A stretch of DNA of 64,000 bases from Halobaculum rubrum. GTDB lineage: Archaea; Halobacteriota; Halobacteria; Halobacteriales; Haloferacaceae. Location of the stretch: positions 434,001 through 498,000 of the forward strand of contig NZ_CP082284.1 of assembly GCF_019880225.1 (NCBI RefSeq), read 5' to 3'. The translations under genes were made by a program, and so were the position numbers. This document shows, one piece after another, positions 14,164 to 28,833 of this stretch; position 1 is the first letter of the stretch; each line of letters opens with the position of its first letter. A model generated the notes under the pieces. That model worked only from the letters and a program-made list of their open reading frames with translations, was not told the origin of the DNA and searched no databases.

Positions 14164-15045
14164 ATGACAGCAAACGACTACGACATGGACGAACGGGTGG
14201 AGAGTATCGAGACGGCGGAGAACAGCGACGACGGCGGGTCCCGCAGGCGGTTCCTCAGTCGCTCGGCGATCGCCGGCGGCGCGCTGTTGACGCTCGGCGG
14301 CGGTGCGGGCCTCTCGCTGGCACAGGAGGACGACGAGGGGGACCCCGAGGAGGCCGAGGGGCCGCTGTTCGACGACGAGGCGGGAACCGACGTGGACGTG
14401 TTGAACTACGCGCTCACGCTCGAGCACCTGGAGAGCGCGTTCTACGGGATGGGGCTCGAGACGTTCGACGCGGGGGACCTCCTCGAGTCGGACGCGACGA
14501 TCGTCTCCACCGAGGCGGACGCGGAGGTGCTGTACGGGAACCTGGAGACGATCGGCGAACAGGAGGCGGCCCACGTCGACCTGCTCACGCAGGTGATCGA
14601 TCTGCTCGGCGGGACGCCCGTCGAGGAGGCGGAGTACGACTTCGGCGTCGAGGACGTCGCCGGGTTCATGTCGCTCGCGTCGACGCTGGAGAACACGGGC
14701 GTCGCCGCGTACGCGGGCGCGGCACCCGCGATCGAGAGCCCGGACCTCCTGCGTACCGCGCTCGGCGTCCACAGCGTCGAGGCCCGGCACGCGGCCGTCG
14801 TGACCGCCGCCGGCGGCGGCGACCCGTACCCGGACGCTGTCGACGACCCGGCCGCTCAGTCGGACGTGCTCGCGGCCGTCGGTCCGCTCATCGCCGAGGA
14901 CGACGAGGAGGAGGAAGACGAGGCCGAGAACGGTGAAGAAGCCGAAGAGGGGGACGACGAGAACGGCACCGAAACTGGAACTCCGAACGGCACTGCGACC
15001 GGGACCCCGAACGGCACTGCGACCGGGACCCCGAACGGGAACTAA
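14164..15045 (+). CDS. Tat-exported ferritin-like domain protein
   Basis: The 293-residue protein has a twin-arginine signal (SRRRFLSRSAIAGGALLTLGG, residues about 25-45), so it is probably exported folded. Residues about 80-230 form a ferritin-like four-helix domain (DVLNYALTLEHLESAFYGMG, IGEQEAAHVDLLTQVI, LENTGVAAYAG, HSVEARHAAVV) with Glu and His at the expected metal-ligand spacing. This resembles the Ferritin_2/desiccation-related family. The tail is Glu/Asp-rich, then has three copies of a TPNGTATG unit (14983-15042), a Thr/Asn linker with possible glycosylation sites. The substrate and role are unknown. Confidence 0.8.
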   Translation: MTANDYDMDERVESIETAENSDDGGSRRRFLSRSAIAGGALLTLGGGAGLSLAQEDDEGDPEEAEGPLFDDEAGTDVDVLNYALTLEHLESAFYGMGLETFDAGDLLESDATIVSTEADAEVLYGNLETIGEQEAAHVDLLTQVIDLLGGTPVEEAEYDFGVEDVAGFMSLASTLENTGVAAYAGAAPAIESPDLLRTALGVHSVEARHAAVVTAAGGGDPYPDAVDDPAAQSDVLAAVGPLIAEDDEEEEDEAENGEEAEEGDDENGTETGTPNGTATGTPNGTATGTPNGN

Positions 15046-15195: not shown

Positions 15196-15390
15196 ATGCA
15201 CGCGAGCGACGATCTACCGAAGCTCCGGGAGCCGGACGCCCTCGAGAACCTCCCCGAGTTCGGGCTCCGGTACCTCTTCGACGACGGCTCGGACCCGAGT
15301 TCGGTGACCGTCTACGACCCGGAGCGCCTGGAGACGACGTGGATCACCGTCGACACCGACACGGCCGTGTCGCTGGAGGACGTCCGTTGA
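15196..15390 (+). CDS. Small DUF7511-like protein
   Basis: The 64-residue soluble acidic protein ends VTVYDPERLETTWITVDTDT followed by AVSLEDVR. The same C-terminal pattern (CTLYP ... TTWLSVDADCLVALDDAR) occurs in the protein at 63487-63699, so both belong to one haloarchaeal family that I place as DUF7511-like from memory. The function is unknown. I start at the ATG at 15196 because a TATA-like box lies 25 bases upstream; the longer frame from 15106 is unsupported. The TGA stop lies inside a 21-nt sequence repeated at 28266-28286. Confidence 0.7.
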   Translation: MHASDDLPKLREPDALENLPEFGLRYLFDDGSDPSSVTVYDPERLETTWITVDTDTAVSLEDVR

Positions 15391-15426
15391 TATCCTCCCC
15401 GCGCTAAAGCGCGAGGAGGACGTCCG
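15386..15426. repeat. Palindromic element copy A (21-mer plus hairpin, flanked by a 12-nt direct repeat)
   Basis: Bases 15386-15406 (GTTGATATCC then TCCCCGCGCTA) occur inverted at 28266-28286. A hairpin follows: TCCTCCCCGCGC (15393-15404), loop TAAA, GCGCGAGGAGGA (15409-15420), with one wobble. The 12-mer GGAGGACGTCCG appears at 15375-15386 and again at 15415-15426, so the insert looks duplicated or flanked by direct repeats. The sequence resembles the palindromic ends of haloarchaeal IS200/IS605-type or PATE elements; this identity is from memory. The host gene's stop codon lies within it. Confidence 0.6.
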
Positions 15427-15583
15427 GTAAGTCGACCCCCTGCTCGAATCGATCCGCCGCTCGAACCGTGCCGCGGGCTCGAACTGGCCTGCACAGCCGC
15501 GGACTGATCGCTCCGGCACGTGGAACCGCCACTCACGGCCGCAAGGGGAAGCGTTTACACCGATCTGGTCCGACCGACCGAAT

Positions 15584-28265: not shown

Positions 28266-28286
28266 TAGCGCGGGGAGGATATCAAC
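28266..28286 (-). repeat. Palindromic element end copy B (21-mer, inverted relative to copy A)
   Basis: On the minus strand this reads GTTGATATCC then TCCCCGCGCTA, identical over 21 bases to 15386-15406. A weaker hairpin partner (AGGGCAGGGGG) follows on the same strand. The TGA within it is the stop codon of the HTH gene at 28282-28833, just as copy A supplies the stop of the gene at 15196-15390. The two host proteins are unrelated, so the shared DNA is a mobile-element end or a conserved 3' processing/termination signal. Confidence 0.6.
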
Positions 28287-28833
28287 CGCCTAGAAAGTGC
28301 CAGATGTGTCCCCGTTCTTTCGGGGGATCGACTCCGGGGAGCTCGGCCAGCGCCGGCTGAATGGCGTTCCACCATCCCTCCGCAGTCTCGAACCCTGCGG
28401 GGTGGTCCGGGAAGACCTCCTTCAGGAAGTCCGATTTCTTCGCTTCCGGGTATACACGGAGATACTCGTAGGCGGCGACCAGTGCGTCTCGTCTCGCCTG
28501 TAGCGTCTCGCCCGTCCCCGGGAGGTCGACTTCCTCGACGGGTCCGCGGCCGAGTATGTCCTCCCCGTGCGCCTCCCGGTCGCTGTTGTCGATCGGCGTC
28601 CACCAGACCCGGCTTCGAGAACCGACCTTCCGCGTCTCGAGGATCCCCTCCTCGACGAGTTCGTTCAGCTTGTTGTGTGCCGTCCGGCGAGAGCAGTCGA
28701 CCGCGTCCATGACGTCGCTGGCTGTCACCGGACGCGCGAGGTCGTCACGCCGTTCGAACACGTCGTGGACCTCGCTGACGGGGACACGGGAATCGCTCCG
28801 CGACCCGGAGCCGGACCCTGGAGGGACCGCCAT
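28282..28833 (-). CDS. HTH-domain protein with an unassigned C-terminal domain
   Basis: The 183-residue protein has a winged-helix region at about residues 25-80 (VTASDVMDAVDCSRRTAHNK; LNELVEEGILETRKVGSRSR). A C-terminal alpha-helical domain follows (AAYEYLRVYPEAKKSDFLKE; GFETAEGWWNAIQPALAELP) that I do not recognise beyond its recurrence in haloarchaeal accessory DNA. It probably binds DNA. A TATA-like box (AAATACTTTT, 28863-28872 on the minus strand) is about 30-40 bases upstream. Its stop codon lies in the repeated 21-mer, so the C-terminus may have been reset by that element. Confidence 0.7.
   Translation of the reverse strand: MAVPPGSGSGSRSDSRVPVSEVHDVFERRDDLARPVTASDVMDAVDCSRRTAHNKLNELVEEGILETRKVGSRSRVWWTPIDNSDREAHGEDILGRGPVEEVDLPGTGETLQARRDALVAAYEYLRVYPEAKKSDFLKEVFPDHPAGFETAEGWWNAIQPALAELPGVDPPKERGHIWHFLGG

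Follow-up and report, generated by a model that had tools for sequence, protein, structure and literature searches.

A probable IS200/IS605-type relic that carries the stop codon of a Halobaculum rubrum gene, and TTAC-anchored copies of the target flank

Results

A hairpin and a direct repeat at the end of a DUF7511 gene

The window analysed here, a stretch of 64,000 nucleotides from Halobaculum rubrum, contains a small gene (Table 1) whose product scored 27.6 bits against the DUF7511 family model PF24351 (cut-off 27). The gene directly upstream has a repetitive tail (window 14905-15045), in which NGTATGTP-like repeats follow an acidic stretch. The TGA stop codon of the DUF7511 gene (15388-15390) falls within the terminus of a short element, element A, and the minus strand of the locus reads TTAC / CGGACGTCCTCC / TCGCGC-TTTA-GCGCGGGGAGGATATCAA / CGGACGTCCTCC, with CGGACGTCCTCCAGCG as the fuller read beyond the right end. 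The copied repeat and the insert together occupy 15387-15426, so that element A extends for 40 nt after TTAC.

An initial annotation of this DNA had described a 21-mer at position 15386 that is inverted and identical at 28266-28286, and both positions were borne out (the 21-mer, GTTGATATCCTCCCCGCGCTA, occupies 15386-15406). It had also placed a 12-bp hairpin there; on the minus strand 13 contiguous pairs form the stem of the fold (-27.4 kcal/mol as RNA). The 12-nt direct repeat reported on either side is likewise present, as the two copies of GGAGGACGTCCG in the window (Table 1), and the downstream copy, which reads GAGGACGTCCGGTAA, again encodes EDVR followed by TAA. No Rfam family matched the window at the gathering threshold. 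Inverted 21-mer matches number six in the window, and order-3 Markov simulations gave none in 47 of 60 runs and two to six in the other 13; taken alone, this count is a weak statistic. The weight comes from the family of elements in the genome and from the empty orthologous sites described below.

Table 1. Features of the element A and element B loci (window coordinates)
Feature	Position	Strand	Basis
DUF7511 gene, 64 aa, ends CGT TGA	15196..15390	+	PF24351 match; sequence; orthologues
Upstream GGAGGACGTCCG; original gene end, the target 3' flank on the minus strand	15375..15386	+	Sequence; orthologues end similarly
Residual right end, 28 nt, IS200/IS605-type: TCGCGC-TTTA-GCGCGGGGAGGATATCAA	15387..15414	-	BLAST to two-ended elements of the same genome; end common to family genomes
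Element terminus TCAA; TTGA on the gene strand	15387..15390	-	Sequence; TCAA is the IS608 right cleavage site
Hairpin (subterminal palindrome)	15394..15419	.	Fold
12-nt copy of the 3' flank, CGGACGTCCTCC, between TTAC and element, in place of the left end	15415..15426	-	Sequence
TTAC target; GTAA on the gene strand; presumed original stop TAA at 15428-15430	15427..15430	-	Sequence; TTAC lies 5' of nearly all single-hairpin copies
Element B, second right-end relic	28266..28286	+	Match to the 21-mer; sequence

Element A has the arrangement of an IS200/IS605-type right end, a subterminal hairpin followed by TCAA, and it lies 3' of a TTAC that is kept on the left, as such insertions do; the same holds for the G143 and G135 copies discussed below. 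In IS608, TTAC and TCAA are the cleavage sites and AAAG and GAAT the left and right guide words (PMC5934647). The left guide word, which most single-hairpin copies have, is missing from element A, as is GAAT 5' of the hairpin, where CTCC is found; most single-hairpin relatives also have no GAAT. Element A shares with PATE elements an IS605-like palindrome and the absence of both a transposase gene and terminal inverted repeats. PATEs are reported not to cause target duplications (Dyall-Smith et al. 2011, PMC3119063), and in this respect element A, with its 12-nt duplication, departs from them. By BLAST its right end matched two-ended elements of the same genome over 31-32 nt at 91%. The broad BLAST output was mostly background, and from it we used only the two relic matches and the ends found at the TnpB and TnpA loci. 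We read element A as a defective relic, with one hairpin, of an element of the IS200/IS605 type, namely a terminal-only PATE; it is a real insertion of a known kind.

Element B, the inverted match, has no recognisable left end, and no copy of its flank of at least 6 nt was found within about 690 bp upstream. Its TCAA (28282-28285) provides the in-frame TGA stop of a gene on the minus strand (28282-28833), which ends GGT TGA. The genus offered no usable orthologous locus: five of 11 genomes matched, namely the genome itself and four others over only 32-120 bases.

A family of short elements in haloarchaeal genomes

A hairpin-motif search of the H. rubrum genome (3.06 Mb) found five two-ended elements of ~370 bp and three single-hairpin copies of ~52 bp. 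In the longer elements the left end reads TTACGGAAGTACGAGGAGAAAGCCCCGTGC and leads into a hairpin arm with GGATGA at its end, and the right end reads GGGAATCCTCGCCCTTTCAGCGCGGGGAGGATGTCAA, with small variants in both; the ~52-bp copies consist of the start of the left end fused to the finish of the right end. The two size classes thus resemble PATEs and terminal-only PATEs, respectively. The five ~370-bp elements lie near 86210, 931448, 2426786, 2659494 and 2704492 (G000:C1), with left-end and right-end hairpins ~327 bp apart, which leaves no room for a transposase gene. TTAC, TCAA, AAAG and GAAT are all found in the two-ended relatives. The genome has three TnpB-type matches, two of them above the family cut-off, and both kinds of end flank the gene of a TnpB-type locus. 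It also has one intact Y1 transposase gene, whose element has a different hairpin.

A pattern consisting of TTAC and the right end matched 99 short copies, which are spread over 53 of the 170 family genomes (0-8 per genome); the reversed pattern, used as a control, matched none. A second scan, made without the TTAC requirement on one genome per species, gave 64 single-hairpin copies in 63 loci. TTAC stood exactly 11 nt before GAGAAAGCC in 58 of these and 10 nt before it in one, and was not found within 60 nt in five. The named carriers of the family are haloarchaea. A length of 40 nt after TTAC is shared by eight of the 99 short copies, including element A. This shorter subfamily, mostly AAGGCTAAAACC plus hairpin, occurs in several species (G065, G084, G117, G126 with two, G137 and G148). 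One further locus (G182:C1:1321945-1322043) is a near-perfect palindrome of two right ends head to head (TTGACATCCTCC...GGAGGATGTCAA).

Orthologous loci without the insert

Among ten other genomes of the genus, nine gave a DUF7511 orthologue and the tenth gave no match. All nine orthologues are without the hairpin and have a single gene end, made up of a short conserved tail and one stop codon. Such loci are what the initial annotation had proposed to look for. Since the orthologous sites are empty, element A is an insertion, as had been claimed; the hairpin is absent from these relatives, and further copies exist elsewhere in the genome. The presumed original stop of the locus, GGTAA, was present in none of the nine. 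The suggestion of a gene end repeated on either side of the insert also stands, the duplicate being a 12-nt copy of the target 3' flank. It could be argued that the repeat arose by chance or was already there, since it is short and includes the palindrome GGACGTCC, and that the hairpin has a function of its own, for example as a terminator. The empty sites already contradict this reading: neither the hairpin nor a second copy is present in any orthologue, and the G143 and G135 loci are single-copy when empty. We find it hardly credible.

Insertion into a stop codon that leaves the protein intact

The complement of a TTAC target reads GTAA, and an element that ends in TCAA replaces this GTAA with TTGA. 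Because the TTAC target is combined with the TCAA end, an in-frame NNG-TAA becomes NNT-TGA. For the DUF7511 gene, the last codons would have changed from CGG TAA to CGT TGA, with arginine encoded in either case. The protein had been thought to be spared by the duplication. Instead, it is intact because the element terminus supplies the in-frame stop, turning G-TAA into T-TGA, and the second EDVR-TAA is not needed. The G143 copy also lies on a stop codon (GCG TAA to GCT TGA); in the conserved empty site, this stop codon shares bases with an ATG (GTAATG).

Of the 64 single-hairpin copies, 13 lie on a stop codon, 42 between genes and nine within called genes. The 805 GTAA sites of the same loci comprise 33 on stop codons, 427 between genes and 345 within genes. 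For stop codons against intergenic sites this gives an odds ratio of 4.0 (p 4e-4), a rough estimate that depends on simple gene calls. A looser rule that uses no gene calls placed 15 of 64 copies on stop codons, compared to 41 of 1,017. Short elements are enriched at stop codons, and selection rather than preference may be the cause.

Copies of the target flank anchored at TTAC

Most copies have their left end directly after TTAC. At element A this place, next to TTAC, is taken by the repeat, a copy of the target 3' flank. For all 99 short copies, we compared the bases after TTAC with those after TCAA and measured the shared prefix. It was at least 8 nt long in three copies, element A (12 nt), G135 (8 nt) and G143 (8 nt), and in none of 9,702 mismatched pairs. 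TTAC-anchored duplication is thus not due to chance. A fourth candidate, G066, has a 6-nt match that stems from a flank starting with GGAGAA, as left ends do, and was not counted. An ordinary target-site duplication by a DDE transposase was also rejected: in each of the three cases the copied bases begin immediately after TTAC, and a copy of 8 nt or more is absent from 96 of the 99 elements.

The sites of G143 and G135 were compared with 24 relatives each, out of 51 genus matches in each search. All 24 are without the hairpin at either site. At the G143 site GGAAGC occurs once before GTAA in 21 relatives and is altered in three, and at the G135 site CGTTCC occurs once after TTAC in all 24; no second copy of the six-base core was found in any of the 24 relatives of either. 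Since these relatives are empty and single-copy, the second copy arose with the insertion. The empty target of G135 (G135:C34), CTTAC(C/T)CGTTCC, is kept in all 24 relatives (loci L200-L223), which suggests that a conserved motif was used as a target.

The extra bases end exactly at the element 5' end in both, GCTTCC before GGAGATTCGAG in G143 and CCGTTCC before GAAAAAGTGAG in G135, so that both left junctions coincide with the canonical 5' end, which lies 11 nt ahead of the GAGAAAGCC-like block. Element A has no left end, and its junction is not at an element 5' end. Microhomology at the junctions amounts to GG (G143), G (G135) and TCC (element A). The extra copies of G135 and G143 both end in TTCC, as would be expected if TnpA had joined the two element ends to two cuts on sister strands, the right end at TTAC and the left end at the near-match TTCC. 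TTCC precedes none of the 64 copies unselected for TTAC, however, and the copy at element A ends in CTCC. We give this double use of the target little chance.

The patterns used to look for further duplications were strict, the rate is low and the cases number three. No flank copy was found in the 64 copies unselected for TTAC, with a pattern that excludes left ends of the G143 and G135 type, nor in longer elements with displaced left ends (five rows in four of 170 genomes). One longer element, L168 (G115:C12:8894-8952), has TTAC and a 13-nt copy of the interior of its own left end (GCGGGGATGAATC) in front of that left end, and is apparently another template-switch scar. Over 391 genomes, displaced left ends gave five rows in four genomes, among which G135 alone (one element, two rows) has a flank copy. 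Hairpins lacking both guide words were found at eight places in seven of the 391 genomes, with no flank copy in the listed portions of the matched strings; element A itself escapes this pattern, which does not allow T as its first base.

A possible origin in half-finished integration

How might such copies arise? We propose an origin in one-sided integration by TnpA, an account that in our judgement has an even chance of being correct. TnpA, a single-strand transposase of the HUH type, would cut the target at TTAC. The right end (TCAA) would be joined to the flank, and joining of the left end would fail. With the intact complementary strand as template, the free 3' end at TTAC could then be lengthened by 6-12 nt of copied flank, and the extended end would be joined to the element 5' end through 1-3 nt of microhomology, as in G143 and G135. 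At element A, the pre-insertion allele would have been GGAGGACGTCCGGTAA, in single copy. Its left end may have been lost before joining, the extension being joined to the right-end stem through TCC; alternatively, given the length of the 40-nt subfamily, 12 nt of a left end may have been overwritten. In this account, element A is a relic inserted antisense into a G-TAA stop.

Half-finished integration would account for the start of the copy at TTAC, its shortness, the usual position of its junction at the element 5' end, and its absence from most elements. The same length of 40 nt after TTAC, as if a 12-nt left end had been overwritten in register, would also suit a PATE insertion of the usual kind, with a duplication that arose later and independently through gene conversion or slippage between empty and occupied alleles and in which transposition enzymes took no part. 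We regard this as improbable, as the copy begins exactly after TTAC at three independent loci.

The main rival to the TnpA account is cleavage by TnpB and repair. After excision of the element, TnpB, guided by an RNA from the right end, would cut the empty site beyond TTAC, and the break would be repaired from an occupied copy of the chromosome (haloarchaea are polyploid). All or part of the element would be copied back and end-joined to a stub that matches the guide, giving TTAC, stub, element and full flank. The copied bases are exactly the expected TnpB target next to the TTAC motif, and TnpB-type genes are present in the genome. ISDra2 TnpB is described as cutting 15-21 bp from the motif, with homing repair proposed (Karvelis et al. 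2021, PMC8612924), and stubs of 6-12 nt fit such a cut after trimming. The stubs are shorter than that distance, and the ~48-nt single-hairpin copies, to judge from their length, are without most of the guide-RNA scaffold. In addition, both cases that have a left end stop exactly at the element 5' end. This is expected of an end made by a transposase, and we prefer the TnpA account because repair from an occupied copy has no reason to stop there. Homing by TnpB is in our view unlikely, though, with three cases of duplication to judge from, far from negligible.

Discussion

To our knowledge, what is understood of how IS200/IS605 elements transpose comes mostly from work on a small number of bacterial elements, in vitro and in bacterial hosts. 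With somewhat less than even confidence, we suggest a general rule in two parts. IS200/IS605-type elements would leave TTAC-anchored duplications of 6-12 nt in ~3% of short copies, as traces of single-strand integration that stopped halfway (or of renewed TnpB-guided cutting). Antisense insertion into NNG-TAA would be automatically neutral for the protein, and such sites would be occupied above expectation. If this is true, the failure modes of 'peel and paste' transposition can be read from genomes, despite the view that insertion is free of duplication, and natural scars with comparable empty sites would allow tests of the order of end joining in vivo and of any role of TnpB. The stop-codon rule would offer a simple reason why elements settle at gene ends without harm to the protein. 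It also has a consequence for annotation, since the stop codon is part of the transposon.

Two features, the TTAC-anchored target duplication at three loci and the built-in stop-codon-neutral landing, appear not to have been described. A search of the open-access literature by title and abstract start found no paper on target duplication by IS200/IS605 or PATE elements and none on stop-codon-neutral insertion, which is weak evidence of novelty in each case.

Comparison with known systems

REP elements with RAYT transposases resemble the short copies in being tiny hairpins that are apparently spread by Y1-type transposases. REPs are described as usually exceeding 100 copies per genome (PMC2817692), compared to 0-8 for the short copies found here.

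As outlined by Karvelis et al. (PMC8612924), the guide region in TnpB/reRNA homing comprises the right end and the flank, and the transposon target site serves as the motif next to the target, an arrangement that is matched here. Element A differs in having neither scaffold nor tnpB, and an action of TnpB at this locus is hypothetical. Similarly, the TTAC kept on the left and the right cleavage at TCAA agree with the 'peel and paste' transposition by TnpA described for IS608 and the IS200/IS605 group (PMC5934647), and AAAG and GAAT are found in the two-ended relatives in the same genome. In contrast to IS608, element A has no genes and neither guide word, and it has a flank duplication.

The closest counterparts in form are the PATEs and the terminal-only, 52-bp PATEs of Haloquadratum, as presented in PMC3119063. 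Element A differs from these in having no left end and a 12-nt target duplication. In common with them are a single palindrome, the lack of terminal inverted repeats and a 5' targeting oligonucleotide, together with an IS605-type origin by deletion of the core, the absence of a transposase gene and, probably, mobilisation in trans.
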